DNA of 34,113 bases, taken from NCBI GenBank assembly GCA_018823795.1, contig JAHJGZ010000071.1, positions 1-34,113 of the forward strand, in the 5' to 3' direction. Of this stretch, positions 450 through 32,248 are shown piece after piece (the first letter of the stretch is position 1; each line of letters starts with the position of its first letter). Made by a program: the position numbers and the translations under genes. The stretch is from Candidatus Omnitrophota bacterium (GTDB lineage Bacteria > Omnitrophota > Omnitrophia > JAHJGZ01). Below the pieces are notes generated by a model that did no database searches, had not been told where the DNA came from, and saw only the letters and a list, made by a program, of their open reading frames with translations.

Positions 450-3400
450 TTAATCCGCCTCTGGCGGTAGAATTGAAACCTTTTTTGTCTTAAAGGGGCT
501 TTTTTTCAAATCGCGCGACGCCTCTATTATTTTCAATTTTCCTCGCGGCTGGTCAAGATCGTCCGGAAGGCTATATTTGTTATTGTGTAGTGATGCGCCG
601 ATAACCCCTTCCATCGATTGTCTGAAAAGCCAGCCTGCTGCGCCCGTATATCCATTCCAGATCATGCGGCCAATATCATAATTGGTTAAAATGTCTGCGC
701 ATTGTTTATTCGGCTGCCCGCCGAAAATTTCGATCTCTTTTGGTGTTACGTGACCGACTGGTGTCGTTTTACGCCAGAGACGGTACGCAATTTCGCGATA
801 TTCGGCCGCCTTTTTTTCATTCCCTTCTTTGTCAAACCGCTCGGTGAGAAGTCGTGCAGCACGAATCATCCACTGAACGCCGTGACAGTACATACCATTT
901 TCGCGTACCCCTTCAGGATATTTAGAACTTCTTCCCAAGTATGGCTTGCTGTCTTCACGAAGAGCAGGCCATCCGAGCAGTACCGCATTTTCACGCTCAA
1001 GCACATTCAGTGCGGTATTAAAGACTACTTCAGAGCGTTTCGGATTAATGTTGCAATAGACTGCCCATGCAGCAGTCAATGCATCGGTTTCCCAAATGCC
1101 GCTATCTTTAACGCCGATTTCTGTGCCGTCATCATGATATGCACGCAGATACCGGTCTTGACGCCATGATGCCTCCAGTGCAGCACCCAGATCATCCATC
1201 TTTTTCTGATAGGCTGCCCGGGACTTTTTGCCGTCCCGCTTTTCAATAACGTTGATCATCCCCTTCATAATATAGTAGAGGAAAAAGCCGAGCCATACGC
1301 TCTCCCCTATCCCCTCACTACCGATTTCATCCAATCCGTCATTCCAGTCTCCGACTTGAATAAGCGGCAGGCCATTTTTCCCCAGCCGTTTATTGAACAC
1401 CAGATCAATTGACTTCATGCAATGGCGGTAGACAGAATCTGCGCGTGTCGAACGGTGATAGATGTGGCCATAACCTATTTTATTTTTCGGCAACAGTGCA
1501 AACGGGAACTCCGAGATAACATAGGATGTCATTTCATCAAGAAGTGACTCATCACCCGTTGCCTGTAAATATTCCGCGGTAGCCCATGCAAGCCAGAGCG
1601 GATTGTCAGATGCATGTGAACGGCATGCGAATGCGGTGCGGCCATCAGTCCTCGTAAAAAACCAATGGTACACATCGCCGCGGTAAAACTGATGCGACGC
1701 TGCCAAAACGATCTGCTTCCGCGCCAGTGATGGTTCGACCCAAAGTAAGTTTACACAATCTTGCAATTGATCACGGAAACCGTATGCACCGCTCGTCTGA
1801 TAAAATCCCCGGCGTGCCCAAATACGTTCGGCAAGCGCCTGGTATTTAAGCCAATTGAGAATCTGATCAAACTCGGGCTGATTTGTTTGCACCTCGACTG
1901 TCTTCATGAGGCTAAGCCACCAGGTGCGGGTTGCTTTAAGGCTTGATTGTGCTGCCTTAACGGTCCGGTATTTTTTGACTACTGCTTTTGCTTCTTTTAA
2001 TTTATCGGTTTGCCCGAGAATAATAGCAACCGTCCGTTCACTATTTGCCGGTATATTCAGCGTTCCTAAGAACGCAGCTATCTGCCGGTCATCGGTATAT
2101 TGTTTACGATCCGGTTTGCCTTCCTCTACCATAACCGGATGGGCAGTACTGCGGCCTCTGCCAAAAAATCGACCGCGGCGCGTTTCGATGCACTCAGCCG
2201 GTGTGGTCATAGAGGCAAATGCCCAGCCGACACGAAATATGTTGCGAGGATTATTAAAGAACAAAGCATTTAAATCTTTGTCATACCGGGTACGCAGCGT
2301 ACCGGATTTTTCAGGTTGAAATTCAAGGACCATTTGAAAATATGGAGCGACCCTCATTTTTCGTGATGTATTGCTATTGTTTTTTACCGTCAGAAGATAC
2401 ACCCCCGTTGGATCGTTCGGCGGTACAAATACGGTCAGTTCTGTCGCGATGTCCCCCTTCTTCATATGAAACGTAGCGCTTCCGTCGACACTGAATTCAC
2501 ACGTATTCTCTGCGCTGTGGTCATTGAGTGGATGCAAGGTCGGACAGTACCATTCTTTTTCCCCGACATCGTAAAGATAAATTGCTTCCTGTGGAACTTC
2601 CTTGGTAACCGTATCTGGCCAATCAGGCGTCAGGCGGTTCTGCTGTGAGTTACCATTACATGACGTATGCAGTCCGCGGTTTGTTACCATAAGAGAATGT
2701 ACCGGGTTTGACATTGCGTGGTCATACGGCCGTGTGGTATACGGGGTATGAACGGACAATGTATTCCCATCATGTATATAGTCAGAATACGGCTGCGGTG
2801 TTCCGGGAAGTATTTCACCGTGGCCGATAAGCGGCTGTTTTTTCTTCGGTGATGGATCTATGTGAGCGCCAGTTGGTTTTAAATGCTCCTTAATCAAATC
2901 GAGTGCCTCTTTTTTGTTTGTTGCATAGCCGATCATAAGACGTATCTGCTTAGATGATTTTGCTTTTACGTGGCAATCCATTAAGAGACTGCCGATCGGA
3001 TCAAACGTCGGATACCCAGCCGTATCGCGTGCTTCTTCAAACGCCAATGTTTGAAATACCCGCGGTGTCCAATAACTCTGCGCGCGCCCGATAAAATCCA
3101 TGCGTGACGTCAGAAAGCCTTCTGTCGGCTTTTCTGCAGCTAAAATCCCCATTGATTTGGTCCCTTTGTGCCACGCGAGAACTGCGTTGACATCACTGAC
3201 ATATTCCATTTCAGGAAAGAGCCGTGCATATTGCGTATGGAACCGGTCATGGAGTCCTCCATTCAAGACCCACTCGCAATACGGCACAATCTTTAATGCG
3301 CGCGGGGTGTGTGTCTGGTTTTCAACCGTAATAGTCCAGATCTCTGCTAAACTATCCTGGTCAGGAATATTAATATCAATCGTTGTTTTTATTCCATCAG

Positions 3401-6400
3401 TAATGTTGACAATCTTCAGTGAATCATCGATTCTTGTAATACGAGATGGGTTAAAGTTTTCAGTTGGAAAATTTCCAATAATTGGCCACGAAGAATTTTT
3501 TCCATCATTCCCCTTTTGGGTATCGAGAAGATAGAGAATTCTTCCACATGGTTCGATCATATCATAGGAACGGCGGGTAACATCGTATTCAGGAGGAAAG
3601 ACAGTCCGTTTTTGATGGTCTACTTCACTGTAGATTTCACTGTTTTCTTTGACAACAACTTTATATTCTCTGTTGTGAATGTCGTAACTTTTAATGCGTC
3701 GTCGCGCAGTTCGGTTATGGAGTGAACGCATACGAAATGAAATCCCGGTTGCAATTAAAAGTGCGGCGCCAATAAGAAGCAGCAACTGGCCAAACGGTAA
3801 TGATTGGATAAAAGAAATAATTCCTCCCCCTCCTGCTGCCTGCATTGCTTCTGCAGTGCTCCAGCAATAATCCCAATCAGCGCCGCGCGGTAGGTAAAAC
3901 GGAATAAGTAACGGTCCCCACGTACAAAATCGTTTCACTGCTTCGGGAAGATAGCGTTGTGCTGCTGCAGGACCGATTTTTTCAGCAATCCATTCATCGA
4001 ACCGGTCAAGCCCGAGAAAGCTCAAATTTACCAGTGTCGCAACACGTAGTCCCATGTGATCCATCCAAATAAGGACACGGAAGAAATCAAACGCAAGAAC
4101 CCAGACAAAAAGTTTTAAACTCCACGCATTAAATGCTTCAGGCGAGGAGGTCGCATTATGATAGATAGCAAACAGCGTGCGAATCGCACCGTCCTGGTTA
4201 TACCAGGTTGGCTGCGGCATCATGCGCAGGAAGGTAAATATAATCGGTGACATCCACAATCCCCACCGCAATACGTAAATCATATGTTCGATAAGCATTG
4301 CAACTCCTGCTTTGGAGAAGAAAAACTTGATCGGCGCTGCCTGTTTTTCGAAATAGGCTTGCATAAAAACTTTGTTAATCGCAAAAAGCCATGCGGCAAT
4401 CGACCAGTTGATAACGCCAGCAAGCGATTCGGTAAAAAGAAGTTTTGAACCGCCGGTGTATGATCCTAAATCAATACGGCCCCATTTATTTACCAGCGGA
4501 TAGGTAATGTAACGGACGGCATCAAATCCTGAACTGGTGTAGAGCTTAAATTTTTCAATGACGACCGGTACTTGCCGTGCGTCAAGATAGAATGCTGCGG
4601 CAGAGCCGACAAATGCACCGAGGAGCCCATCAGTAAGATAAAGTTTCCACGATTGTATCTTCCCCTGTCCGCGGACCATAAACGTGGCATCTCGCAAAAG
4701 ACTTACCCCAACAGAGGCGGCAAGACCGACCATAAGGCCGAAGACAATACGCTCGGGCATTGACAGTTCAAACATCCCCTGTGAAACCATTGACGTAAAT
4801 CCGTACCCAACCACTGCACCGCGTGCGTACAGCGTTCCATGACCATAGCTAAACTTGGCCCGTTCAAAAAACGGAAAACTGCCGTCAAATGTTTCAATAA
4901 TTGTTTTAAGAAGCGGAAAGACTAATGCCCCGAAGATAATACCGCACAGAAGCGGCGCTGATTTCATAATCGTTTGCGTCAATCCTGCATTGAAAAATAT
5001 ACTGATCGCAAAAAGCAGTCCGAGCAAATACCCGCTGAACCATGCCCCCTTTTTCATACCGACCCGCACATGCTCAGAGAGAGTTTTCCATGACGGTGCG
5101 GTGTGGTGCCCCGCATCAAGAAGTATGCCGGTGATAAGATACACTTCACCCCACAACCCTGCATAGGAAAGCATGGTGGTAATCATTGCAATAATCATGC
5201 TGATCAGTGTCGGTAATGCGGCAACTGTGCTGCTTGAACCAACATCAGCAATAAGTGGGGCAACAATAACGCCGAATGAGACGAAAAGGACCAGGATATG
5301 TTCTTTGAACTGACTCAGGGTTCGCCTTTTGATGACTAAACCAATGCCGTTTATAAGCAATTCGTTAAAGATAAAGACCACAAAAATCCGGCTCAGTGTT
5401 TCACAAAGAAACGGTGCTTTCATGAGAAGGCCGCCGGTTGTGACATTAAAAAAATTCTGGATAATCGTTATGTTTTCAACAAGGAGCAGCCAGCCGCACA
5501 AAAACGGCGTCATGACAAGCAATGTGCTGGTAATCGGCCGCAGGTGACGCCCCGAGGTAACGAGTGAATACATATTAAAGAAATGATAAATCAAAAAGGT
5601 GACCGCTGCAGTAAGGCTGCTCACCATGAATAATTTCTGCCATGATGATGGTGCTTGCAGAAGCTCTTGACGGCTTGCTGCTGCTGCCAGAAGACCGGAG
5701 AAAAGCATATTTTGGAAAACTTCAGCCGGGGTTAAATGTTTTCCCGTGATTTGAAATTTTAATACTTCGGCGATGAGGACACCGATTAAACCTATGAATA
5801 AAAAGGAGAAACTAATACCCGCGTCTAAAGAGCTTATCGTCCCCTGTGAATAGATCGAGAGTACAATGCCTGCAATGCCTACGATAACAACAGCATAAAT
5901 GAAATCCTTTATAATTCGTGACAGAAAAGTATCGTTAAACAATACCCCACGAGCGCTCGGCGTGCCTTTTGGTTTAAAACGAAAACTACTGCACAGTGAG
6001 ATGAGTCCGATGAGCAGGAGACTGATGATGGAAATCGAGATAAGTTTTATAAACATAAAATTCTTCTCGATAAATGAAAGCTTGTAGAAGTTGACATCCA
6101 TATAAAGAGTACCGGTCAGCGGTGCGCTCATGGCCTGTGGAGGTCCTTCTGCGCGGCTTACTTCAATCGGGCTTCCTCCCATAGGGCTTTGAATTGTTGG
6201 TCCGCCTGCCATGGGACTCACGACAAAAACAAACTCTTTTATTGTGCCGACCATTCCCCAGTCAATCTGTTCATGAAAATAATTCCAGCCCGGTTGCAGG
6301 GTGAGTGGAATCTTTTGCATCGTGGTCTCACCTTTAATTTCAACCTTAACTGCCACCTGATTTACCTGTTCAGGCGTTGGCATATTGACCCCAATCCGTA

Positions 6401-7766
6401 CTGCATCGACATTTTCTGGCGATAATCCAGCGGGAAACTTTTGACTCCAGACCCCGACGATTGCCCCAATCGGGACTGTGTAATCGAACTTCCATACATC
6501 CTTTGCTACCTCCTCATGAAAGGAACATTTCACCACACCATTTCCCGGGCCGATGTTAAACATCCCCTTCGCCCCCGCATCCAGATGTGAATAAAGGGCA
6601 GTAAAATCTTTTGGCGGTGTGATTGTTTCTTTTGGAAGTCCTTGTTTGACAAAGTTGAGAGCAAAAGCAATTGTTCCCTTAACTAATTCCTTCTCCCCTT
6701 TATGATTAATAATAAGAGAAACTTCATTGAGTTCATCGATCATATCCCAGTTAAGAGACTCTTGGAGCGTATTCCATCCACGGAAAAGTTCGAGCAGAAT
6801 AGTCTGTGTGTCCTTTTTACCCCGTATTTCTATGTGTGCGGCTATATCGGCTGTTTGCTCTATCGTGGGAACGTTTATATATATTCGTACGGTATTGATC
6901 GTGTCACTATTAAGCTCTTTGGGAAATTTTTTTGCCAGTATCTCGATATTCGTTCCCTTCGGCAATGTGTAGTCGCACTCTAGAATGTCTTTGTCTATCG
7001 TATCAGCGAATGTGGGGAGTGCACTTCCATTTGCATCACCGCTTTTAAGAATGCCACGCTTGTTGGCATCCATAATAGTAAAAGCGGTCTTGAGCGGTAC
7101 ACTTTTCGGCTTTTCTTCTTTTGCAGGTGTTAGGGCGGGAGTAACAGCTGATTTTATTTCAGGCACTTTTTTCTTTGGTGGAATGTATTTAAAAAGATTG
7201 AGATTGAAATAAACTGTTCCGGTTGCCGGGTCAGCGTCCCCTGTCGAGGTAATGGTAAATACGATTTCAGACAGGTCGCCAATACTTTTCCACTCTATCG
7301 GCCTTTTACGATACACCCATTTTTCCCCGATGCGTAAGGGGATGCGTTGCGTACTTTTTGTCCCCTGTATGTCTGCAGTTACCTGAATCTGTGTAATCTC
7401 TTCAGCTTTCGCAGAGCGAAGACCGATTTGTGCGCTATTTATGGCTGTCTTCGTCAGCGTTGACGGAAAATTTTTTAGCCGGACCTTTATGGATGAGCCC
7501 TTGGGTATTGAATAATCGCATTCGAGGACATTGTTGCCTGTTATGCCATCGACCGAGGTAATGACGTTGCCCTCAGATGATCCCGATTTTTCGACACCCC
7601 GCTCCCCTGCATCAAGGATATTAAATGACGGAGTAGCGAAGGCGCCTGTTGAAAAGATAAGTGTTGTTACGAGTAACGTGAGCCCGATGAATGTCAGTGG
7701 TGTAATGCGGAAATTCCGGCTACGCCTCATATTGGCGCACGGAACGGAATCGGAATTTGATAGCAT
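450..7766 (-). CDS. 2438-aa protein: signal/TM, three N-terminal beta-sandwich-like repeats, polytopic membrane core, two GT36-type beta-sandwich domains and a GH94 phosphorylase catalytic domain (NdvB C-terminal-like)
   Basis: Long uninterrupted ORF. GH94 signatures GAYGFRDQLQD and GDWNDG (1335-1352), plus tandem GT36_AF-like domains as in the C-terminal part of cyclic beta-1,2-glucan synthase. Many hydrophobic segments across about aa 565-1345. Confidence 0.85.
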   Translation of the reverse strand: MLSNSDSVPCANMRRSRNFRITPLTFIGLTLLVTTLIFSTGAFATPSFNILDAGERGVEKSGSSEGNVITSVDGITGNNVLECDYSIPKGSSIKVRLKNFPSTLTKTAINSAQIGLRSAKAEEITQIQVTADIQGTKSTQRIPLRIGEKWVYRKRPIEWKSIGDLSEIVFTITSTGDADPATGTVYFNLNLFKYIPPKKKVPEIKSAVTPALTPAKEEKPKSVPLKTAFTIMDANKRGILKSGDANGSALPTFADTIDKDILECDYTLPKGTNIEILAKKFPKELNSDTINTVRIYINVPTIEQTADIAAHIEIRGKKDTQTILLELFRGWNTLQESLNWDMIDELNEVSLIINHKGEKELVKGTIAFALNFVKQGLPKETITPPKDFTALYSHLDAGAKGMFNIGPGNGVVKCSFHEEVAKDVWKFDYTVPIGAIVGVWSQKFPAGLSPENVDAVRIGVNMPTPEQVNQVAVKVEIKGETTMQKIPLTLQPGWNYFHEQIDWGMVGTIKEFVFVVSPMAGGPTIQSPMGGSPIEVSRAEGPPQAMSAPLTGTLYMDVNFYKLSFIEKNFMFIKLISISIISLLLIGLISLCSSFRFKPKGTPSARGVLFNDTFLSRIIKDFIYAVVIVGIAGIVLSIYSQGTISSLDAGISFSFLFIGLIGVLIAEVLKFQITGKHLTPAEVFQNMLFSGLLAAAASRQELLQAPSSWQKLFMVSSLTAAVTFLIYHFFNMYSLVTSGRHLRPITSTLLVMTPFLCGWLLLVENITIIQNFFNVTTGGLLMKAPFLCETLSRIFVVFIFNELLINGIGLVIKRRTLSQFKEHILVLFVSFGVIVAPLIADVGSSSTVAALPTLISMIIAMITTMLSYAGLWGEVYLITGILLDAGHHTAPSWKTLSEHVRVGMKKGAWFSGYLLGLLFAISIFFNAGLTQTIMKSAPLLCGIIFGALVFPLLKTIIETFDGSFPFFERAKFSYGHGTLYARGAVVGYGFTSMVSQGMFELSMPERIVFGLMVGLAASVGVSLLRDATFMVRGQGKIQSWKLYLTDGLLGAFVGSAAAFYLDARQVPVVIEKFKLYTSSGFDAVRYITYPLVNKWGRIDLGSYTGGSKLLFTESLAGVINWSIAAWLFAINKVFMQAYFEKQAAPIKFFFSKAGVAMLIEHMIYVLRWGLWMSPIIFTFLRMMPQPTWYNQDGAIRTLFAIYHNATSSPEAFNAWSLKLFVWVLAFDFFRVLIWMDHMGLRVATLVNLSFLGLDRFDEWIAEKIGPAAAQRYLPEAVKRFCTWGPLLIPFYLPRGADWDYCWSTAEAMQAAGGGGIISFIQSLPFGQLLLLIGAALLIATGISFRMRSLHNRTARRRIKSYDIHNREYKVVVKENSEIYSEVDHQKRTVFPPEYDVTRRSYDMIEPCGRILYLLDTQKGNDGKNSSWPIIGNFPTENFNPSRITRIDDSLKIVNITDGIKTTIDINIPDQDSLAEIWTITVENQTHTPRALKIVPYCEWVLNGGLHDRFHTQYARLFPEMEYVSDVNAVLAWHKGTKSMGILAAEKPTEGFLTSRMDFIGRAQSYWTPRVFQTLAFEEARDTAGYPTFDPIGSLLMDCHVKAKSSKQIRLMIGYATNKKEALDLIKEHLKPTGAHIDPSPKKKQPLIGHGEILPGTPQPYSDYIHDGNTLSVHTPYTTRPYDHAMSNPVHSLMVTNRGLHTSCNGNSQQNRLTPDWPDTVTKEVPQEAIYLYDVGEKEWYCPTLHPLNDHSAENTCEFSVDGSATFHMKKGDIATELTVFVPPNDPTGVYLLTVKNNSNTSRKMRVAPYFQMVLEFQPEKSGTLRTRYDKDLNALFFNNPRNIFRVGWAFASMTTPAECIETRRGRFFGRGRSTAHPVMVEEGKPDRKQYTDDRQIAAFLGTLNIPANSERTVAIILGQTDKLKEAKAVVKKYRTVKAAQSSLKATRTWWLSLMKTVEVQTNQPEFDQILNWLKYQALAERIWARRGFYQTSGAYGFRDQLQDCVNLLWVEPSLARKQIVLAASHQFYRGDVYHWFFTRTDGRTAFACRSHASDNPLWLAWATAEYLQATGDESLLDEMTSYVISEFPFALLPKNKIGYGHIYHRSTRADSVYRHCMKSIDLVFNKRLGKNGLPLIQVGDWNDGLDEIGSEGIGESVWLGFFLYYIMKGMINVIEKRDGKKSRAAYQKKMDDLGAALEASWRQDRYLRAYHDDGTEIGVKDSGIWETDALTAAWAVYCNINPKRSEVVFNTALNVLERENAVLLGWPALREDSKPYLGRSSKYPEGVRENGMYCHGVQWMIRAARLLTERFDKEGNEKKAAEYREIAYRLWRKTTPVGHVTPKEIEIFGGQPNKQCADILTNYDIGRMIWNGYTGAAGWLFRQSMEGVIGASLHNNKYSLPDDLDQPRGKLKIIEASRDLKKSPFKTKKVSILPPEAD

Positions 7767-12587: not shown

Positions 12588-13691
12588 TTAGAATATTGTT
12601 CTATCTTTATAGATACTGATTAAAAGACCGAATGCAATAAAGTACGTTAACATTGATGAACCGCCGTAACTGATTAATGGAAGAGGCAGACCAGTTATGG
12701 GGCATAAGCCGATTGTCATGCCAATATTAATACACACCTGAAAGAGCAACATTGCTGTTATGCCAATTGCCAATAATTTTGCTTCAGGGTCGGTCGTTTT
12801 TTGAATAATACCAATCGCCAGTTTTATAAGAATAAAAAACAGTACAAGTAATAAAAAGGCAGCTAAAAACCCACCCTCTTCACTGATGATACAGAAGATA
12901 AAGTCCGTATGATGTTCAGGGACAAAATTGAGACGATTCTGTGTTCCTTCAAAAAGTCCCTTTCCCCAGAACCCTCCGGAACCGACTGCAATTTTAGACT
13001 GTATTGCCGTATAGCCGGCCCTGAGCGGATCGGCGTTTATATTAATAAAAGTAAGGAGCCTATTCTTTTGATAGGGTTTTAACATATGCCATACGATAGG
13101 CATTGACAGAGCACCGAGGAAAAAAGACATAAATATATACTTCAACCGTGTTCCCCACAGATACAACATGCAATAAAGTATCGGAAGAAATATAAGAGCC
13201 GTTCCTAAATCGGGTTGGTTGACAATTAACACTAATGGTATAAAAGTGAGGATAAATGCAATAAAAAAACGCTCTCGCTGAAGGATATTTCGTTTTCTGC
13301 TTCCCAAATAATGCGAGAGTGCCAGAATAACGGCTAATTTTGCAAACTCCGATGGTTGAAAAGCAAAATTCCCGAGTGGAATCCAACGCTGTGCGCCAAA
13401 CTTACTCGTACCAATAAATAAAACTGCTATTAAAAGTAACAGAGAGCAAATATAGAGAAGATAGGAGACATTAAGAAATGATCGATACCCAACCGCGGTT
13501 ACGCCAAACAGAAAACATATGCCCAGTATGAGCCATATAAATTGTTTCAGAGCATAGAGCGGTGCTGTGAAGTCTGAGGACATTGACGCAGAATGAATAA
13601 AAACAATACCGATTGATGCGATAATAATAACAAGAAAAAAGAGTATCCAATAAAAATCTTTAAATGTTTGTTTTATATATGATGGTATCAT
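12588..13691 (-). CDS. rodA: Rod-shape SEDS glycosyltransferase RodA
   Basis: SEDS family: 10-TM pattern, LISYGGSSMLTYFIAFGLLISI near the C-terminus. 4-nt ATGA overlap with mrdA. Confidence 0.93.
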   Translation of the reverse strand: MIPSYIKQTFKDFYWILFFLVIIIASIGIVFIHSASMSSDFTAPLYALKQFIWLILGICFLFGVTAVGYRSFLNVSYLLYICSLLLLIAVLFIGTSKFGAQRWIPLGNFAFQPSEFAKLAVILALSHYLGSRKRNILQRERFFIAFILTFIPLVLIVNQPDLGTALIFLPILYCMLYLWGTRLKYIFMSFFLGALSMPIVWHMLKPYQKNRLLTFININADPLRAGYTAIQSKIAVGSGGFWGKGLFEGTQNRLNFVPEHHTDFIFCIISEEGGFLAAFLLLVLFFILIKLAIGIIQKTTDPEAKLLAIGITAMLLFQVCINIGMTIGLCPITGLPLPLISYGGSSMLTYFIAFGLLISIYKDRTIF

Positions 13692-15406
13692 AAGGCTCTT
13701 TCGTTTTGCTGGTCATACCAAATCGTTGCTATCTCTTTTGCGAGTTTCGCTGCTTTAATGCCACCAACACCGCCATGTTCAACGACAATAACCATGGCAA
13801 TCTTTGGCTTATGGTAGGGAAAAAAACCGGCGAACCATGAATGCGGTTCACCTTTTGTTTCTGCAGTTCCGGTCTTACCGGCAATTTTGAAAAAGTCAAC
13901 CTTGGCAAGATGTCCCGTGCCATACCGTGTATCGACCGCTTTTAACATAGCACGCTTAATCACTTGTACGTGTTGTTTGCTTAAGGAGCTTTTCTCAGGA
14001 TTATGCTGTACCCCCTTTATGATCGTTGGTTCGATAATTGTTCCTTCGTTTGCTATGATGGAAATAAAACGTAATACTTGTAATGGGGTTATAGCAATAT
14101 ATCCCTGTCCGATCGCATAATGGAGTGTTTCTCCTTGGTACCATGGCTCATGAAAACGTTTTCGTTTCCACGTCGTTGATGGGATGAGGCCACGAGCAAC
14201 ACTGGGCAATTCTATATTAACCGGTTCTCCTAAACGTAATTTCCGTGCAAATCGCGCCAATTGATCAGCGCCGAGCAAGCGCCCTATCTGATAAAAATAG
14301 ATATTACACGACTGCTGTATTGCCTTTTCGAGTGTAACCGTGCCGTGTCCATATTTTGACCAACAGTGAAATGGACGGGTGTCTGGAGATAACTTGTATA
14401 CCCCCGTACAGGTAAAAGCAGTATGTTGTGTAATTTTTCCGGCATCTAAAGCAGCCAGCGCCGTTACCAGCTTAAACACCGAACCCGGCGGATACCGTGA
14501 ACTAATAACACGATTAAGAAACGGCAGCGTCTGGTCACGTAGAAGTTCAATACGTTCATTGCTTCGCGACGGCGTTACAAAGGCATTCGGGTCAAAACTG
14601 GGATTACTCAGCAAGGTAAGAATTTCACCAGAATTAATGTCCATGAGACAAATCGAAGCCACCTCATTTCCAAGTAATTCATAAACCTTTTTCTGTAGCG
14701 TGCTATCTATGGTGAGAGTAAGATCATTGCCGGGAAACGGTTTTTTTTCTGCAAGAACCCTCATTTTTCTTCCCTCATAATTTACTTCTATCTGTTCGCC
14801 GCCATGTACACCGCGCAATACTTCCTCAAACAGGTATTCGATGCCGGTACGTCCGACATAGTCATTAATTAAATACCCCATAAACTTTTTCGTGGCATAT
14901 TCATCTTTTGAGATTTTCCCCAGATAGCCAATGACATGTGCACCTATTTCCCGTAATGGATAATACCGCGTTCCTGATACCTCGACAAACACCCCGCCGA
15001 AATCGGTGCTTCTTTCCTCAATGCAATGGACGTCATGTGAGGAAATGTCTCGTTTGAGCACGCGGGGCACAAACGACGGTTGCGACGTATTGGTAAGCGT
15101 TGAGCGTATCGTCTGTGCGGGAATATCTATGATTTCTGACAATACTTCAGCACTTTCACTATTAAAGTCTTTGGGAATGATGTAGAGGTTAAATGAGGGT
15201 CGATTGTCTGCAAGGATAACATGATTTGTGTCGAAAATACGGCCGCGCACCGTTTTAACCGGGATAAGCCGTATCCGGTTATTTTCACTCCGCGTTCTAT
15301 AGTAATCACCGTCGATTATTTGGAACCGGAATAAAGAAAATATAAGTATACCGAACAGGATATACAAAAAATAATTAAACAACTTAATGCGTGCTATCGT
15401 TATCAT
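13688..15406 (-). CDS. mrdA: Penicillin-binding protein 2 (elongasome transpeptidase)
   Basis: SxxK (PPGSVFKL), SxN (QQSCNIYF) and KTG (AGKTGTAE) motifs, single N-terminal TM, and a dimerisation domain. Confidence 0.94.
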   Translation of the reverse strand: MITIARIKLFNYFLYILFGILIFSLFRFQIIDGDYYRTRSENNRIRLIPVKTVRGRIFDTNHVILADNRPSFNLYIIPKDFNSESAEVLSEIIDIPAQTIRSTLTNTSQPSFVPRVLKRDISSHDVHCIEERSTDFGGVFVEVSGTRYYPLREIGAHVIGYLGKISKDEYATKKFMGYLINDYVGRTGIEYLFEEVLRGVHGGEQIEVNYEGRKMRVLAEKKPFPGNDLTLTIDSTLQKKVYELLGNEVASICLMDINSGEILTLLSNPSFDPNAFVTPSRSNERIELLRDQTLPFLNRVISSRYPPGSVFKLVTALAALDAGKITQHTAFTCTGVYKLSPDTRPFHCWSKYGHGTVTLEKAIQQSCNIYFYQIGRLLGADQLARFARKLRLGEPVNIELPSVARGLIPSTTWKRKRFHEPWYQGETLHYAIGQGYIAITPLQVLRFISIIANEGTIIEPTIIKGVQHNPEKSSLSKQHVQVIKRAMLKAVDTRYGTGHLAKVDFFKIAGKTGTAETKGEPHSWFAGFFPYHKPKIAMVIVVEHGGVGGIKAAKLAKEIATIWYDQQNERAL

Positions 15407-15480
15407 AAAAAATCGTTATAGAAAAATTGGTATTGGTAAGAATATATGAAGTGAAATAAATTTGCACGAAAATAGCAATG

Positions 15481-15903
15481 CTAATAATGAATAGCTTGTT
15501 TGGCTATCTCATCATATTCTTCTTTAGTTATAAGCTTTGTACGGTCTATTTCATAGTCATTGAATGTTACCGGCAGCCCCTGATAGTTGATCGTAAAGCT
15601 ACCTCCGTCTTCTCTCTTAATCTTTCCCATTGCCTGAAAGCCGTTCGTAAGCGTAATAACAACATGATCCTTTTTAGGCGGTGGTGCCGCCGGCGGCGTT
15701 TCATGTACGGCAGGTGTATCATCGCCGCGTACGGGTTTTGTGTCTTTAACAACCGCAATACTTCCTTTTTTTGATCCAGGAATCAGTTCTTTACATGTTG
15801 TAATAATATTTTCAAAAAAAGTCCCCTTTTCAAATTGATCAAAGTTTTTATAAGTATATACCGCTAAACCAATTAGTATCACAACAATGATTAACTTTCC
15901 CAT
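15481..15903 (-). CDS. Small membrane-anchored protein: N-terminal TM, Pro/Ala-rich linker, small beta-rich C-terminal domain
   Basis: 140 aa with strong RBS AGGAGG. N-terminal hydrophobic LIIVVILIGLAVYTY, linker TPPAAPPPKK, then VVITLTNGFQAMGKIKREDGGSFTINYQGLPVTFNDYEIDRTKLIT. Confidence 0.7.
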   Translation of the reverse strand: MGKLIIVVILIGLAVYTYKNFDQFEKGTFFENIITTCKELIPGSKKGSIAVVKDTKPVRGDDTPAVHETPPAAPPPKKDHVVITLTNGFQAMGKIKREDGGSFTINYQGLPVTFNDYEIDRTKLITKEEYDEIAKQAIHY

Positions 15904-15955
15904 GTGTACGCGCCAGCCTCCTTTCTGTAATTAAAGTATACTATCGCGAGCGCCA

Positions 15956-18079
15956 TTATTCAAATAGTTTTTCATCGCGCAATAAAAATTCACCGTTCTC
16001 GACAACCGGGTCCTGATGAAATCTATTGCGCATTATTCCATCGTTTAAATAGTTATCCAACGAAATAAAAATCATGGCTTGATCGAGACATAAATATTTT
16101 AACGCTACCTTTTTTGTCTTCGGATTTACCGCGTCATAAAATCCGTATTCGCCATATATATCATACAGGTTAATTAGTGTGCGTATATTTTCTATTGCTT
16201 TTTTCGGGATGTATTCAAGAGTTAAAAATGTTGCATGGGGGGTTACGACACCGTCTTTGTATCCTTTAAGCCCGCCGTATTTGACACCGTATTCAGAGTA
16301 CCCCCCTTCTGGCACTGAGGAGGGACTCATCCCCCACACCGGATAGCCAAGGGTATCTTTTGCATATGATGCCTGCAATTGAGCATGTCGTAGATTATTC
16401 AACCCTAAACTATCAGGAGCAAGATCTTTTTCATTGAGTAATAGTGCAGGCATAAGTGCCTCAAAAAGTGAGCCGCCCCAGGAAGGCACAAAGGATTGCT
16501 CTTTATATTCATAATAACCGCCAAAATACGTGATATCGTGAAAGGTTTTTTCTTTACGATTAATCGGCATCTGTTGTTGCCAGGAGTATGATTCAGGAAA
16601 AGTACGATGGAGCCTTACCCAATGCTCAAGGGGAACATCACCGCGTGCAATTGCCAGGTAACTCGCAATACGCGATTCTGAATAAAATGCGCCGTAATGA
16701 TAGTTAGCATAGGCTTCTAAATTTTTAAAATATCCGTGAAAAAATTGTTGTGCCACGTCATCGTAAAAAAACGAAAAATCCCACGTGTCTAATAATGCGT
16801 CGCAACGATTTCGCAACTCCTCATTTTCAGGAAAGACGTTTTTTGCCACATACACACCGCTTGCGAGCCATCCGCTGTCAACGCATGAGATGAAATTACT
16901 CGTTCGTTCGGCAGTTGTCGTATCGTAATAATTAAAGAGAAAATGTTTATAGGTCTCAAGTGATTCGACGGTGCCGAGCGTTTGATTTATTCGTGTAAGC
17001 ACTTCGGCCTTATCAATAAAACCAAAATCATATGCAGCCACCAAACAAATAAGATAGAGTCCGATATTGGTGACGTTTGTATAGTCACCGACATATCCTC
17101 CCTCGCCGAAGACACCCTCTTCAGTAAGACAAATAGTATCAAGAGGTAAATGCGTTTTTTTATCAACGACTTCATCAAAGAACCGCCACGTATCGTATGC
17201 TATTTCTAAAAGAAGTTCTCGGTCATCTTTTGGAAACTCCTTTTTGACGTAGACCTGTTTCGGGTACCCACAGAGCCGTTTTGCCAACCATTGTGCCCAT
17301 CCAGTAGGATCATATTCATGTGTCGTTTTTTTAAGTGCGCTGCCTCTAAAATCAAAGGCGCTCGGACCGGGATGGCCGGTTTTTCGAAATTGAAATGTAT
17401 CAAAATAAAGAACCCCTTCTTTGTTATCACACAAACGATCATTAAAAATAATGACCAATTCATCAAGGTTTTTCATCTCGCGAATAGCACTGAATTTATT
17501 AAGCGGAATTGAATAACGCTGCCAACTCGAAGTAACGCAGGTTACGATATACGATGCCGCAAGTTTTTCAGTGCGCGTTTCATCCTTGAATTTTTTTAAT
17601 TCCACAATGAAAGAACTGGTAAACCCCTTTTCACTATCCCCTTTGACTAAAAATTCTAAATGATCATAATTGGTTGCATCAATATTCATTAATTTAGTCC
17701 AATAGCCGTTTTGCGCGGTCTCGGACGCTTCTATATCATAGGTTAATTGTAATACTTTTTTCGATAATTCAGGAGCGGGCACGGAGACAATTTCAGGGCG
17801 ACACGACGTAAATTCATCATTCGGGTCGAGATTCCACCCACCACTCTGCCCGTCGAGCCTGTTTTTCAAATTGCCATCATCGAAATCATCAATGATAATT
17901 CTTTTTTCATTTGATGCCGCCTCTCTAAAAAAACCTATTTCTTCACTCTCGTCGTATATAAACGGAATCGCATTTTGTTCTTTGTCTTCTGATGTACATA
18001 CAACACTAGACGCAGAAACAAAGACACATAGAAAAAACGTGATTAAAACAAACAGGCGTATGTATTTTTTTGTTTTCAT
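15956..18079 (-). CDS. Secreted glycoamylase-like (PF10091/GH144-like) protein with N-terminal CIA30/CBM11-like beta-sandwich
   Basis: Signal peptide; IIIDDFDDGNLKNRLDG...W...GVLYFDTFQF beta-sandwich module; catalytic-region hallmarks TSNFISCVDSGWLASG, GGSLFEALMP, WGMSPSS...GYSEYGV, GVVTPHATFLTLEYIP, YGEYGFYDAVN, LCLDQAMIFISLDNY. Confidence 0.85.
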   Translation of the reverse strand: MKTKKYIRLFVLITFFLCVFVSASSVVCTSEDKEQNAIPFIYDESEEIGFFREAASNEKRIIIDDFDDGNLKNRLDGQSGGWNLDPNDEFTSCRPEIVSVPAPELSKKVLQLTYDIEASETAQNGYWTKLMNIDATNYDHLEFLVKGDSEKGFTSSFIVELKKFKDETRTEKLAASYIVTCVTSSWQRYSIPLNKFSAIREMKNLDELVIIFNDRLCDNKEGVLYFDTFQFRKTGHPGPSAFDFRGSALKKTTHEYDPTGWAQWLAKRLCGYPKQVYVKKEFPKDDRELLLEIAYDTWRFFDEVVDKKTHLPLDTICLTEEGVFGEGGYVGDYTNVTNIGLYLICLVAAYDFGFIDKAEVLTRINQTLGTVESLETYKHFLFNYYDTTTAERTSNFISCVDSGWLASGVYVAKNVFPENEELRNRCDALLDTWDFSFFYDDVAQQFFHGYFKNLEAYANYHYGAFYSESRIASYLAIARGDVPLEHWVRLHRTFPESYSWQQQMPINRKEKTFHDITYFGGYYEYKEQSFVPSWGGSLFEALMPALLLNEKDLAPDSLGLNNLRHAQLQASYAKDTLGYPVWGMSPSSVPEGGYSEYGVKYGGLKGYKDGVVTPHATFLTLEYIPKKAIENIRTLINLYDIYGEYGFYDAVNPKTKKVALKYLCLDQAMIFISLDNYLNDGIMRNRFHQDPVVENGEFLLRDEKLFE

Positions 18080-18106
18080 ATTGTTATAACTCCATATTTT
18101 GCTTGT

Positions 18107-18160
18107 ATCCCCCCTGCTTTCTTGCCTGCCTGAAAGCAGGCTGGCGAAAGCAAGAAGGGG
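18107..18160. repeat. Strong intergenic stem-loop (REP-like/attenuator candidate) between mreD and the glycoamylase-like gene
   Basis: GCTTTC-TT-GCCTGCCTG-AAAG-CAGGCTGGC-GAAAGC with outer CCCC...GGGG arms. It shares the CCTGCCTG core with the palindrome at 148-167. Confidence 0.6.
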
Positions 18161-18217
18161 TGATAAATTCGGACTTATATTTTAGCTTCACAGTCGTTCA
18201 CTAAAACATGTCCTCAT

Positions 18218-18727
18218 TTAAAAGAGCTCATATTGCACTGTTTTCCGGGGGATGCAAATCTTTATTATATGATCCATAATGAGTGCGGTTATCGTCGTAT
18301 ACAGTGCAATACCCAATAACTTGTTGACTAATGAATTAATTATATGATACGCCCCCTCGGTAATAATGAGAGAACAGATGAATACAAACAACGAACTCAA
18401 TATAAAAAGAAAAATTATCAATACTCGTACCGGATAACTTTCAATATCAGCTTTTTTTATTATTGTGGGAAAAAAGAGGGCCGGTATCACTAATGAAGTG
18501 ATTTCAAGCCCAAAAAAATTATTTGAATACAGCTCCTTAATAATTCCGATAATATACGCTAAATACATCGCATTGATATTCGGGTGTCGTATCAAAAGAC
18601 AAATAAAGAGTGCGCAGAAAAGATCGGGGCGTATCGTGCCCACAGCAACATACGGGACACACGTTGCTTGCAGAATAATCACACTTATGGCAACAAAGAA
18701 TAATCTTAACTTGATTTTTTTAAGCAT
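18218..18727 (-). CDS. mreD: Rod shape-determining protein MreD
   Basis: Small polytopic protein immediately after mreC (22-nt overlap), with VAVGTIRPDLFCALFICL and FGLEITSLVIPALFF. Confidence 0.88.
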   Translation of the reverse strand: MLKKIKLRLFFVAISVIILQATCVPYVAVGTIRPDLFCALFICLLIRHPNINAMYLAYIIGIIKELYSNNFFGLEITSLVIPALFFPTIIKKADIESYPVRVLIIFLFILSSLFVFICSLIITEGAYHIINSLVNKLLGIALYTTITALIMDHIIKICIPRKTVQYELF

Positions 18728-19500
18728 AAAACATCTTCCAGTTTTGAAAAATCGACAAATGGCTTTATTTTTGCAAAAACGTGAAGTCCATTATCCTCCA
18801 CACCAACAATGGTAATAGAACCTATAGGAATGCCTTTGGCATAAATACCGCCGAGGCCGGACGTAATAACGACATCACCAACCTGTGCATTCGTATTTAA
18901 ATCGAGATAGCGCATCGTAAGGAGTCCGTTACCGTTGCCTTCGATAATGCCGGTATCGCGCGAGCGTTGGATTATACCACTTACTTTTGACTGATGATCA
19001 ATAATAAGAATACATCGCGATGTTGTTAAACTGACGAAAACGATTTTTCCTACAAGACCGCCCTGTGCAATGATAGGCATATCCTTTACTGCCTCATCCT
19101 GAGTTCCAATATTTATCACTATCCAATTTGACCAGGGGGAAACGTCGTGCCCAATGACTTGTGCTACCACATGTTCAACCGGCACGGTTTTTTTAAAGTG
19201 TAGCAATTCAATTAACCGTTCATTCTCTGACTTTATTTCGTCATAATCAATAATCTTTTGTTTTAATTGAATTATTTCCCGCCCCAGATGCTCATAAGAA
19301 CGATACTGTTGAATAGCATCAAAAATACGGCTGACGCCATCAGAAAGGTTGTAAAATAAAAAATTTGATGCCTCAAAAAGTGGCTGAAAGGTGTTGATAG
19401 AAAAATTTCTAACGTGAGAGTAAAAATGGGTTGAATTTAATGCAAAAAAAACCGGTAATATAATTACCGCTAAGAGTACAATTATGTGTTTATGTTTCAA
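18706..19500 (-). CDS. mreC: Rod shape-determining protein MreC
   Basis: N-terminal TM, coiled coil, then VVAQVIGHDVSPWSNWIVINIGTQDEAVKDMPIIAQGGLVGKIV...VSGIIQRSRDTGIIEGNGNG. Confidence 0.94.
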   Translation of the reverse strand: MKHKHIIVLLAVIILPVFFALNSTHFYSHVRNFSINTFQPLFEASNFLFYNLSDGVSRIFDAIQQYRSYEHLGREIIQLKQKIIDYDEIKSENERLIELLHFKKTVPVEHVVAQVIGHDVSPWSNWIVINIGTQDEAVKDMPIIAQGGLVGKIVFVSLTTSRCILIIDHQSKVSGIIQRSRDTGIIEGNGNGLLTMRYLDLNTNAQVGDVVITSGLGGIYAKGIPIGSITIVGVEDNGLHVFAKIKPFVDFSKLEDVLCLKKSS

Positions 19501-19559
19501 TGTTTCCGCCGATAGAAAATGACTTGAAATTTATTAGAATTGCATCGAAGGTAACTTAC

Positions 19560-20609
19560 TTAGAGAGCATACTTGCCGACTTCGCTGGTAACTTTTTTTA
19601 AAAACTTAAGCTCCCCTAACGTGCGCCCTGTTCCGATGGCTATAGAAGTTAGTGGATCGTCAGCGATGTTTACCGGAAGTCCTGTTTCTTCACTGATGAG
19701 CTTGTCAAGTCCCCGCAATAGTGAACCGCCGCCTGCAAGAATAAGGCCGCGGTCTATGAGATCAGCAGAAAGCTCCGGAGGAGTTCTCTCAAGGGTTATT
19801 CGTACGGCATCAAGAATGGATGAAATTGGCTCTGACAATGCTTCGCGGATTTCTTCACTCGTTATCGTAATTGTTTTGGGAAGCCCTGCTAATATATCTC
19901 TCCCTTTTACTTCCTTTTTTATTTCTTCTTCTAACGGATAGGCAGAGCCGATTGCGATCTTAATATTTTCGGCCGTCATTTCACCAATAAGTAAATTGTA
20001 TGTCTTTTTTAAATGCTGCGTAATGGCTTCATCAAATTCATCACCGCCGATACGTATAGATTTTGAATACACGATACCGCCTAAAGAAATAATAGCGACT
20101 TCTGTCGTACCGCCGCCGATATCAACAATCATATTTCCACCCGGTTCTTGAATAGGTAACCCCACGCCGATTGCTGCTGCGATGGGTTCTTCAATTAAAT
20201 ACACCGGCGAACGGGCTCCTGCTCTTTCAGCAGAATCTTTAACCGCGCGTCGTTCAACTTCCGTAATTCCGCTTGGCACCGCAATGATCACTCGTGGACT
20301 AATCAGCTTCTTTTTTGCATTTACCTTTCGAATAAAATAGCGCAACATTGCCTCAGTAATATCAAAATCTGCGATAACACCGTCTTTCATAGGACGAATA
20401 GCAATAATATTACCCGGCGTACGCCCCAGCATCCGTTTCGCTTCTTCGCCAACTGCTAATACGTTGTTCGTTCCACGCTCAATAGCAACAACGGACGGCT
20501 CACATAATACGACCCCCTGTCCTTTCAGATAAACGAGCGTATTTGCAGTACCCAAATCTATACCCATATCATTCGAAAAAAGGTTGAAAAAGCTATCTAA
20601 TAGTCCCAT
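19560..20609 (-). CDS. mreB: Rod shape-determining protein MreB (actin homologue)
   Basis: [80 protein letters not shown]. Confidence 0.98.
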
Positions 20610-20751: not shown

Positions 20752-21918
20752 TTACACCATATATTCTTTATAGAGCGCATCAAGCTCCTTGACCATTCGC
20801 TCATACGGAAACAAATCAATAGCTTTGTGGTAGCCGTCCATCCCCATTTTTGACCGTACGTCTTTATTTTCAATAAGAAAGAGTATTTTTTCACTGATCA
20901 TATCAATCGATTTTGGCGGAATAAGAAATCCATTTTTTCCATCTTCGACAATGTTGTACGCACCATCAATATCGTATACAACAACCGGTTTCTTACAGAG
21001 AAACGCTTGTGGTACGACCCGTGGCAATCCTTCACGCAACGATAAATGAACGACTATATCCATGCACTGTACATATCGCGGAATCTCTTCAGGCTTCACC
21101 AGACCGACAAAGCGTATATGACGATCAATGCCGAGTTTTTTTGCTTCGTGTTGTAACATATTTTTCAGAATCCCGTCGCCGACCAATAAAAAATAGGTAT
21201 TCGGTTTACGATCGATAACTTTTTTGATTGCCGGCAATAAGTATGTATGTCCCTTGAGATAAAAAAGACGAGCAATTTTCCCAACAACGAGAGCATTTTC
21301 AGGAATGTCTAATTCATTTCGCAAGAGTGTCGCATCACTTTTTGAAGCGGTTGTAAAACGTTCCGTTTCAATTCCGCTATAAATGGTTTGATATTGCTCC
21401 GGGGTACCAACCTTTTCTGCGAGAGCCTTGCGTGTCATTTCAGGACAAACCGTAATAATTTTTTGCGTCCACCGTGAAACCAAACGCTCAACGTATATAT
21501 AGATGATATTCAGCACTTGATTTTCAAAGCGATGATACGCTAATCCATGAATGCTATGAATGATGACCGGAACGTTGGCTATGTGTGCAGCTGCGCGTGC
21601 CAGTATTCCTGCTTTAGAACTGTGTGTATGAACGATGTCATATTTTTTTGATTTAAAGAGTTTGTATAACTTGATAAAAGCGATAGTATCATAATAGACA
21701 TTTAAATTCCGTCTCATTTCATGGATAAGGAGTACTGATATTTTGTTTTTATACGCTCTGTCTAAAAGGGTGCCTTCAGGGCCAATAGCGGGGCCAGTTA
21801 TTAAATCTACGTCGTACTCAGCGTTTGCGTGAAGCCCTTCAACGCTAAGGAGCGTGTTCTCCTGTGCGCCGCCGATAATCATGCGAGTAATAACATGAGC
21901 GATTTTAATTTTTTTCAT
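20752..21918 (-). CDS. Glycosyltransferase family 4
   Basis: GT-B fold: MIIGGAQENTLL, VHTHSSKAGILARAAA, VVGKIARLFYLKGHTYLLPA, LSLREGLPRVVPQAFLCKKPVV. Confidence 0.93.
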   Translation of the reverse strand: MKKIKIAHVITRMIIGGAQENTLLSVEGLHANAEYDVDLITGPAIGPEGTLLDRAYKNKISVLLIHEMRRNLNVYYDTIAFIKLYKLFKSKKYDIVHTHSSKAGILARAAAHIANVPVIIHSIHGLAYHRFENQVLNIIYIYVERLVSRWTQKIITVCPEMTRKALAEKVGTPEQYQTIYSGIETERFTTASKSDATLLRNELDIPENALVVGKIARLFYLKGHTYLLPAIKKVIDRKPNTYFLLVGDGILKNMLQHEAKKLGIDRHIRFVGLVKPEEIPRYVQCMDIVVHLSLREGLPRVVPQAFLCKKPVVVYDIDGAYNIVEDGKNGFLIPPKSIDMISEKILFLIENKDVRSKMGMDGYHKAIDLFPYERMVKELDALYKEYMV

Positions 21919-23329
21919 GACTTGAAATAAGGGTTAATAATTTCTTTGCATTTCCCACAAAAACTTTTGGCTGAGATAATAACTGCTTCATACCAACAAA
22001 AAAATACTTTGGACGCAGATAATGACTACGATACGCATTTCGTAATGCTGAATGCATAGCAGTGTGGCTGAGGTGCGGATATTCATAGATCGGTTTCAAG
22101 GGCATGTAATCATCCCAATTTTTTGTTAACAAAAAACCATGGGTATCAAGATAATTATAAAATTCAGTGCCCGGATACGGCACGGCAATACTGAATTGCA
22201 CTGTTGAGAGATTGAGTGTCTTTGCAAAATGAACTGTTTTTTTAATCGTTTCATGCGTTTCCCCCGGAAGGCCAAAAGCAAATGTTCCGTGGACATGAAA
22301 TTTATAACGCAACATTTTCTCTACAGCGCTGCGGACGTTGTGTAACTCGTATCCCTTTTTAATATTTTTTAATATTTTCTCGTCGGCACTTTCTATACCG
22401 ATTTTCAGAAGGAAACAACCTGCCTGCCGCAATGTTGATAGCAATTCGTCATCGTTACAATCTGCACGAGTATAACATCCCCAGGGAATGGTTAATCTTC
22501 GCTTCATGATTTCACGGGCAACGGCTATTGCATGATCTCTGTCAGCAGTAAACGTATCATCATTAAAAAGAACCGATTGAAACGTATAATTCTTTTGAAT
22601 CTCCTCGAGTTCATCAACGATGCGAATCGGATTTCTTTTTCTGAATGTACGCCCCGTCAGATAGAGCGGCCAATTACAGAATGTGCATGGATACGGGCAT
22701 CCCCGACCACTCAGTACGAACGTAAATGGATTTTTAAGAATAGGATCAAAATATTTATAATTGGGTAACAAATTACGCGCCGGAGGCGGAAGCACATCAA
22801 GTTCTTCACAAAACGGCCGCGGTACATTAATAATAATGCTACCGTGCGCGTCTCTATACCCTATTCCCGGCGTATCGACAGGCCCTTTTTTAATGTATTC
22901 TTCAAGTGAAAATTCATATTCTCCTAATACAATAACGTCTACCGCCTTGTGTGCGAGCGCATCATGTGGTAAAGCAGTAACATGAGTTCCTAAAAAAACA
23001 CTATGAATCATCCGCGGGTAGAGTGCATCTTTTACCTTTTGCGCTACACGACAGTCATTGCTAAATGAAGGGGTTGACGTTTCAAAGACCAGTATATCCG
23101 GTGCTATTTTTTTAACCATGTCAATAAAATCATTCACCGTACTCGCATTTGCTGGTGCGTCGATCAAGTCAACATCATGCCCCTGTTTTCGTATATATGC
23201 TGCAGCGTACGCGAGATAAAGCGGTGGGTGCATAACCGGTGTTGCATAATTGTAGGTTGGGAAACGGACCGGTCTAAAAAAACTGCCTGCATCTTTAAAT
23301 GTTGGTGGATTAGCAAATAATATTTTCAT
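21905..23329 (-). CDS. B12-binding radical SAM protein (BchE/P-methylase-like)
   Basis: B12-binding-like N-terminus (PPLYLAYAAAYIRKQGHDVDLIDAPA) and radical SAM motif GRGCPYPCTFCNWP (CxxxCxxC). Confidence 0.9.
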   Translation of the reverse strand: MKILFANPPTFKDAGSFFRPVRFPTYNYATPVMHPPLYLAYAAAYIRKQGHDVDLIDAPANASTVNDFIDMVKKIAPDILVFETSTPSFSNDCRVAQKVKDALYPRMIHSVFLGTHVTALPHDALAHKAVDVIVLGEYEFSLEEYIKKGPVDTPGIGYRDAHGSIIINVPRPFCEELDVLPPPARNLLPNYKYFDPILKNPFTFVLSGRGCPYPCTFCNWPLYLTGRTFRKRNPIRIVDELEEIQKNYTFQSVLFNDDTFTADRDHAIAVAREIMKRRLTIPWGCYTRADCNDDELLSTLRQAGCFLLKIGIESADEKILKNIKKGYELHNVRSAVEKMLRYKFHVHGTFAFGLPGETHETIKKTVHFAKTLNLSTVQFSIAVPYPGTEFYNYLDTHGFLLTKNWDDYMPLKPIYEYPHLSHTAMHSALRNAYRSHYLRPKYFFVGMKQLLSQPKVFVGNAKKLLTLISSHEKN

Positions 23330-23342
23330 AAATAGTAGTGAA

Positions 23343-23371
23343 TTCTAGCACAGGTCTATTTTTCTATCAAA
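23343..23371 (-). promoter_or_regulatory. Sigma70-like promoter TTGATA-17 bp-TAGAAT for the radical SAM/GT4 pair
   Basis: Minus strand TTGATA GAAAAATAGACCTGTGC TAGAAT, ending about 14 bp upstream of the 23329 start. Lies in a divergent intergenic region. Confidence 0.55.
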
Positions 23372-23434
23372 CAAATAAATGAAGGCGCGATAAACAGAGA
23401 AACCTTCGTTTTAAATTGCTAACATCATTTTTTT

Positions 23435-24436
23435 ATGATACCATTTGGTCTTATTATGAATCTACCATCGGTAACTATCGTCATCCCTTCATACAATAGC
23501 GAAAAAACCATATCTGAAGCTCTGGAGGGGTGTTTAAAGCAAGATTATCCGTTGGAAAAGATGGAAATTATCGTCGTTGATGACGGATCAATAGATGCAA
23601 CGAAGTCGGTCATCGGCAAGTACAATGTACGTTACCGCTATCAACAAAACAATGGGCCTGCGTCTGCACGTAATAATGGTTGGCGCCATGCCAACAGTGA
23701 AATTGTTGCTTTTCTCGATTCCGATTGCGTTCCGCGACGTAATTGGATTAAGAAAATGATGATGCAGTATACATCTGACGATATTGTATGTGTGGGGAGC
23801 CGGTACGGGATCGCTAATCCGCGCAGCCTACTTGCCTGCTGCATCTATTTTGAATTTTTAGTCCGTTATAAACGCATGCCGCGTCATCCAAAGTTTTTGG
23901 GATCTCATGGCTATTCGTTCAGAAAATCATTTCTAGAATCTATCAATGGTTACAACGAGGGATATACAATGGCAAGTCATGAAGATAATGAACTCGCCTA
24001 TCGTATTGTTGCAAAGGGGTATTATACAGTTTTCGATAAAAGCAATATTGTTGATCATTATTTCCCAACCGGAATGGTGAGGTATTTGACCATACAATTT
24101 TGGCATGGGTTTTGGCGAATGAAACTCTACGTTGACCATCCCCGAATGGTTATTGGTGATGATTACTCCGATCTGTGGGATTATATGCAGCCGCCACTTA
24201 TGGTGTTGTTACTCGCTCTTTCCCCCTTTATCTTTATCAATGCGGTGATCCCTATTGTACTTGGTCTTCTCTGCTGCTTAATTTTTTTACAATTACCTAT
24301 TACCGTGAGCATTGTTACATTGATAAGAAAAAAAAGATATGTTGTGTACATACCGTTTGGTATCGTGCGCGCAGGTGCGCGGTGTTTTGGTATGATTATC
24401 GGAATCATTTATTTTTGGATTCAACGCAAAAAATGA
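23435..24436 (+). CDS. Glycosyltransferase family 2 (start may be 23456, MNLPSVTIVIPSYN)
   Basis: TIVIPSYNSEKTISEALEGCLKQDYP, IVVDDGSIDATKSVI, GPASARNNGW, FLDSDCVP. Confidence 0.92.
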   Translation: MIPFGLIMNLPSVTIVIPSYNSEKTISEALEGCLKQDYPLEKMEIIVVDDGSIDATKSVIGKYNVRYRYQQNNGPASARNNGWRHANSEIVAFLDSDCVPRRNWIKKMMMQYTSDDIVCVGSRYGIANPRSLLACCIYFEFLVRYKRMPRHPKFLGSHGYSFRKSFLESINGYNEGYTMASHEDNELAYRIVAKGYYTVFDKSNIVDHYFPTGMVRYLTIQFWHGFWRMKLYVDHPRMVIGDDYSDLWDYMQPPLMVLLLALSPFIFINAVIPIVLGLLCCLIFLQLPITVSIVTLIRKKRYVVYIPFGIVRAGARCFGMIIGIIYFWIQRKK

Positions 24437-28168: not shown

Positions 28169-28185
28169 AAAACAGGTATCCTTTT

Positions 28186-28887: not shown

Positions 28888-28894
28888 TGATTAC

Positions 28895-30049: not shown

Positions 30050-30060
30050 TGTTTGTCTCC

Positions 30061-31092: not shown

Positions 31093-31117
31093 GTTTTATA
31101 AATAGTGTCATAGTACA

Positions 31118-32230: not shown

Positions 32231-32248
32231 AAGATATGGTACACGTGC

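Follow-up and report, generated by a model that had tools for sequence, protein, structure and literature searches.

The 2438 aa protein encoded at 450-7766 on the minus strand of the Omnitrophota contig analysed here (JAHJGZ010000071.1, 34,113 nucleotides; hereafter the window) raises the question of what a GH94 phosphorylase does when it is fused to a large membrane domain in which no synthase can be recognized. The gene is a single intact open reading frame with no internal stops, and Pfam matches and full-length orthologues (~60% identical) define an order of repeats, polytopic module, double supersandwich and GH94 catalytic domain. The initial annotation had described this giant frame, without giving its strand, as N-terminal repeats, a polytopic region, and tandem GT36-like domains followed by a GH94 domain with GDWNDG, and each of these elements is present. 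A predicted signal sequence (aa 1-45, 7632-7766, ending LIFSTGAFA/T) precedes three mutually related repeats of ~160 aa (pairwise identity 26-32%, E-values 1e-25 to 1e-32) at aa 45-202 (7161-7634), aa 229-388 (6603-7082) and aa 392-566 (6069-6593); other family members have one to four copies. The polytopic membrane module (aa 565-1378, 3633-6074) contains ~19 predicted transmembrane (TM) helices and belongs to no known family. The GT36-like domains are two GH94_b-supersand matches (aa 1396-1613, 2928-3581, E 5e-24; aa 1683-1918, 2013-2720, E 2e-42) and the (alpha/alpha)6 catalytic domain (aa 1949-2390, 597-1922) matches Glyco_hydro_94 (E 6e-61), with GDWNDG at aa 2139-2144 (1335-1352); both domain types score above the Pfam cut-off, placing the protein in GH94. 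The fusion protein has no match in NCBIfam, and its architecture is not described in the open-access literature searched.

In loci L053 and L057 the repeats and the first TM helix form a separate, secreted ORF, both splits falling at the first cytoplasmic loop, and we therefore regard the repeats as an extracytoplasmic module. Repeat 1 has a weak hhalign match (probability 48.6%, E 1.8e-4) to the CBM domain found in the GH189-like neighbouring proteins described below, which is suggestive of a CBM11-like jelly roll and a possible carbohydrate-binding function. The positive-inside pattern is clean for TM1-14 and ambiguous between residues 1061 and 1328. After the last helix comes a strongly basic stretch, RMRSLHNRTARRR, which the initial annotation had placed there and which favours a cytoplasmic position for the GH94 side. 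The proposed topology, with the repeats outside and GH94 most likely in the cytoplasm, thus agrees with the charge pattern, the basic stretch and the splits in L053 and L057.

The C-terminal half is more closely related to Cgs than to other GH94 enzymes. Sequence comparison gives 327 bits over the main stretch to Cgs (8rf9), against ~105 for cellobiose phosphorylases and 22 for SOGP. A Foldseek search with an AlphaFold2 model of aa 1379-2438 (pLDDT 69.5, pTM 0.70) has Cgs (8rf0) as the best match (E 1e-42, TMq 0.69-0.71), extending over both supersandwiches and the barrel, followed by SOGP (TMq 0.60) and cellobiose phosphorylases (0.5). Cgs D2528 is the general acid, and D2393 and D2528 are the two positions changed by mutation in CgsiGP, whose phosphorylase is inactive (PMC10901819). 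By alignment these correspond to D1999 and to D2143 within GDWNDG, and both are invariant in 17 orthologues. The motifs GFRD, YCHG and YTGAAGW, which we take to be GH94 phosphate-site motifs, are present alongside GDWND and are invariant in the same 17. From the intact catalytic residues and the Cgs-type character of this half we predict that the fusion GH94 is an active phosphorylase, and its similarity to Cgs indicates that the substrate is probably a beta-1,2-glucan. The soluble GH94 phosphorylases, such as cellobiose phosphorylase and SOGP, share the fold, the catalytic residues and the phosphate-site motifs, but they lack the membrane domain and repeats and are much less similar in sequence. 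The fusion GH94s form a group of their own, 27-31% identical to the GH94 of Omnitrophota Cgs proteins, whereas standalone GH94s in fusion-bearing genomes are closer to it (36-37%). The source genome encodes one such standalone GH94 of 805 aa adjoining a DUF3131 protein (L001, G000:C118:10621-14838), and in class relatives the standalone GH94 is often near a second PF10091 protein.

The membrane module resembles nothing else that we could identify. Its AlphaFold2 model, built with 40 sequences, is almost entirely helical (pLDDT 79.5, pTM 0.78), consistent with ~19 TM segments, and is weak at aa 1230-1290 (pLDDT 50-57), where a remote structural kinship is possible. A 40-member profile has no sequence match in the PDB, and none of the 40 orthologues has a credible Pfam match or any match to a Pfam glycosyltransferase in this region. 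Foldseek returns no PDB match at E <= 0.001 (the best is 0.05, with query TM-scores of <=0.13 among the hits listed) and nothing among viral structure models. Comparisons using hhalign are similarly negative, with probabilities of 0.1% to the GT84 and TM regions of three genuine Omnitrophota Cgs proteins, 0.1% to the PMT-type GT-C proteins of the window, 0.2% to RodA and 1% to an ABC permease. A degenerate or divergent GT84 is thus rejected by Pfam across the 40 orthologues and by hhalign, and no GT84/GT2 module of the D-D-(Q/R)xxRW type is found by either; the invariant 'RW' of VLRWGLW is predicted to sit within a TM helix, and we discount it as a QxxRW motif. The statement in the initial annotation that no synthase module is recognizable therefore stands, and the structural match to GT84 or GT-C that it had named as contrary evidence was sought with Pfam, hhalign and Foldseek and not found, within the limits of AlphaFold model quality. 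Conservation in the fusion protein is greatest in the C-terminal third of the module, at aa 1081-1260 (75-85% mean identity; the most conserved stretch extends over aa 1064-1300, 3867-4577) and is generally above that of the GH94 catalytic domain. The invariant module residues include D1062, R1167, W1168, W1188, N1190, D1192, W1234, D1236, H1237 and R1241, and many of the invariant acidic and aromatic positions are on the predicted outer face; the first outer loop is not conserved.

Relatives of this module are present in a second setting. Searching with the module profile gives remote, collinear matches within gigantic ORFs of another Omnitrophota family, and hhalign with a profile of four such ORFs aligns 416 columns at ~22% identity (99.9%, E 4e-33), a second comparison giving 99.9% and E 2e-32. 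Reversed or column-shuffled profiles score <=0.4%, and these controls, together with comparisons to other polytopic families, reject composition as the source of the match; we conclude from the profiles that the two modules are homologous. The shared region is the C-terminal half of the fusion module (aa 841-1297, 3876-5246). Both forms have, a few exceptions apart, the WGEVYLITG region, FPLxKTxxE, YxRGAVxGxG, SLAGxxxW, GLWMxPxI, PTWxNQxG and WxD, and the motifs FDGS, DHMGLR and NQDG are confined to the GH94-linked form. Apart from the GH94 fusions, the matches among 384 phylum genomes are open frames of ~3,000 to 30,185 aa, some cut by contig ends, and two assembled giants, of 30,185 and 14,792 aa, carry the module some 2,500 aa in from the N-terminus. 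The giants (L099-L102; G215:C4 and G099:C3, L111-L124) also differ from the fusion protein in their N-termini, which have a common signal-like motif FLPEQAAxA; L099, which reaches a contig end and is at least 1470 aa long, contains a peptidase C39 domain ahead of the module, and TPRs. Few domains are annotated in the Velamenicoccia giant ORFs, whose functions are hard to assess (PMC10066038), and we did not find the module described in the open-access literature searched. No GH94 was detected in the gigantic ORFs of the four genomes tested, and the module is therefore not specific to glucan phosphorolysis. The initial annotation is borne out on the absence of a known family or fold, and its suggestion of a glucan translocator or a new polymerase fold is an inference. 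A more speculative and rather doubtful proposal is that the module could be the founding member of a class of glycan polymerases or translocases of the membrane that is new, unrelated to GT2/GT84, GT-C enzymes and flippases, and used in Omnitrophota both for a GT84-less Cgs-like machine and as a conserved core of the giant surface proteins.

The fusion is conserved beyond the source genome. Orthologues are encoded in 25 of 58 relatives, most of the intact ones being 57-66% identical, and a full membrane module is present in 33 of 285 phylum genomes, with 50-62% identity in the module among Omnitrophota orthologues. A scan of GTDB representatives adds 43 public loci, nearly all in Omnitrophota MAGs, with others in Auribacterota (L045), Sumerlaeota (L057), Elusimicrobia (L060) and Planctomycetota (L062 and L063, the latter 38-39% identical), and in every ORF long enough to tell the module runs on into GH94. 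These numbers rule out chance, an assembly artefact or a chimera, and the conservation across loci indicates an old and selected architecture. We also asked whether a glycosyltransferase might act in trans, and reject this for the source genome, in which no GT84 is found and the sole candidate, a GT2 match on a different contig, is weak (E 7e-5). GT84 was likewise undetected in 22 of the 25 fusion-bearing relatives (source genome included). Five Omnitrophota relatives (including L125, L126 and L127, and G031:C44 and G026:C72) have strong GT84 matches in Cgs-like genes, and three of these five also carry the fusion gene; the RxxRW motif is seen in all three Cgs-like genes read.

Because it has no GT84 (DxD, catalytic D and (Q/R)xxRW), the fusion protein is not a Cgs. 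It resembles Cgs/NdvB in being a giant membrane protein with a C-terminal double supersandwich and GH94, the extra supersandwich corresponding to the GP1-GP3 arrangement, and in having the same catalytic residues. It differs in having ~19 TM helices of an unmatched kind rather than six, in having repeats outside, in having a GH94 only ~30% identical, and in having no cytoplasmic cyclase domain, there being no PF10091 match in the ORF. In Cgs the primer is an autoglycosylated tyrosine and the product a cyclic glucan. The fusion protein may still work like a Cgs, and a GH189-type cyclase does exist here as a separate protein. The 707-residue product of 15956-18079 (minus strand), 8 kb from the fusion gene and missed by the initial annotation, is a predicted secreted protein with a CBM-like domain and a GH189/Cgs cyclase-like domain. 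Its best PDB match is the cyclisation domain TiCGS-Tg (8wy1, E 1e-45), followed by Cgs CY (6e-41) and GH144 (8e-7); from TiCGS-Tg the window protein differs in being secreted, in standing alone and in its CBM-like domain. The active-site pattern is of the Cgs type (VDSG and SESR), with serine where GH144 has its catalytic aspartate, and an aspartate, a glutamate and a serine match Cgs D1104, E1300 and S1101 (positions from PMC10901819); by sequence the protein is nearer to GH189 than to GH144. Of the three Cgs enzymes, two thus have relatives encoded in the window, on separate chains, and GT84 is missing.

The genomic context of the fusion gene is variable. A distant group of Omnitrophota (L032, L034, L035, L036, L051 and L053) has the GH189-like gene immediately downstream of the fusion and genes for a TPR protein and another PF10091 enzyme upstream. 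Where the contig reaches, ABC sugar permeases, a ROK protein and a two-component system are also encoded, and some loci of this L032/L036/L053 group include a binding protein and a standalone GH94. Outside this group the fusion has no conserved functional neighbours and is usually a standalone single gene, and we therefore reject a conserved operon as a general feature. PF10091 proteins are encoded in 51 of the 58 relatives, most class relatives have the GH189-like gene whether or not they have the fusion, and it lies among cell-wall genes there, clustering with those for a D,D-carboxypeptidase, a Cu-oxidase_4 (PgeF-like) protein, EF-P and mre proteins; in the window it lies inside a cell-shape run, mreB-mreC-mreD-PBP2-RodA (12588-20609). 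It is thus not an exclusive partner of the fusion in the main class, and their proximity is at most suggestive of a partnership. Elsewhere in the window there is a glycan cluster (20752-33422) encoding GT4, GT2, two PMT-type GT-C proteins, LPG_synthase_TM, a GDSL hydrolase and a B12-binding radical SAM protein.

The explanation that we tentatively favour is that the fusion protein is a GT84-less, Cgs-like machine whose membrane module passes or builds a beta-glucan across the inner membrane while GH94 trims it by phosphorolysis. The N-terminal repeats would hold the glucan outside, the ~19-TM module would move the chain outwards and would probably also build it, and the cytoplasmic Cgs-type GH94 would use phosphate to trim from the non-reducing end, setting the length and returning glucose-1-phosphate; the periplasmic GH189-like enzyme may cyclise or transglycosylate the product. 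In favour we count the Cgs-like C-terminal half (by sequence and Foldseek) with its invariant D2393 and D2528 equivalents, the 22 of 25 fusion genomes with no detected GT84, the GH189-like gene nearby or adjoining, the C-terminal part of the module, which exceeds GH94 in conservation and has many invariant W, D, R and N residues, the positive-inside pattern, and the split-off repeats in L053 and L057. A self-sufficient enzyme is expected to stand alone, so the standalone fusion gene counts in the same direction. Against it are the lack of a glycosyltransferase signature or fold in the module, the spread of the GH189-like gene irrespective of the fusion and its position here in the mre cluster, the greater similarity of standalone GH94s to the Cgs GH94, and the giant-ORF relatives with no detected GH94, which indicate that the module's basic job may be something else. 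The importer-like set of the L032/L036/L053 group, which looks catabolic, also counts against it and raises the possibility, realistic if doubtful, that glucan travels inwards: the repeats would capture beta-glucan, the module would be a channel, and cytoplasmic GH94 would phosphorolyse the chain and pull it in, saving energy as glucose-1-phosphate. Consistent with this, the flanks of the fusion gene in L032, L036 and L053 encode ABC permeases for sugars and a two-component system as well as ROK and a pair of PF10091 enzymes of the GH144/GH189 type, and some of these loci add a binding protein and a standalone GH94. The catabolic function of GH94 enzymes such as SOGP and the weak resemblance of the repeats to a carbohydrate-binding domain point the same way. 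Elsewhere, however, the fusion gene is alone and importer genes are absent, the module is more conserved than expected of a channel, and Foldseek finds no transporter fold for it.

The remaining explanations are less probable. GH94 enzymes are reversible, and if cytoplasmic GH94 polymerised from glucose-1-phosphate and the module exported the chain, no glycosyltransferase would be needed and its absence would be harmless; SOGP has been used in vitro for beta-1,2-glucan synthesis, according to literature cited in PMC12102758. We regard this as improbable, since cellular Pi/G1P ratios favour breakdown. Moreover, we know of no cellular polymer made by reverse phosphorolysis. Homology of the module to that of gigantic ORFs with few annotated domains (PMC10066038) is what would be expected if it served Omnitrophota giants generally as a surface or anchoring element and GH94 were simply tethered to the membrane, but this too is unlikely given that the C-terminal part of the module is more conserved than GH94 and that only the GH94-linked form has FDGS, DHMGLR and NQDG. 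Finally, the polytopic character and the many invariant acidic and aromatic residues on the predicted outer face could reflect a highly diverged GT-C-like glycosyltransferase that uses a lipid-linked sugar. The first outer loop is conserved in classical GT-C enzymes but not here, no Foldseek match to any GT-C was found, and the hhalign comparison with the PMT-type proteins of the window is negative, so that we consider this very unlikely.

The joining of a Cgs-type phosphorylase half to an unrelated membrane module means that GH94 fusions without GT84 should not be annotated as Cgs. To the synthesis, movement and length control of glucans in uncultured Omnitrophota, and to the function of their giant proteins, the fusion offers a practical entry, as it is a compact protein of 2.4 kaa with an assayable enzyme attached to a membrane module that it has in common with the giants.
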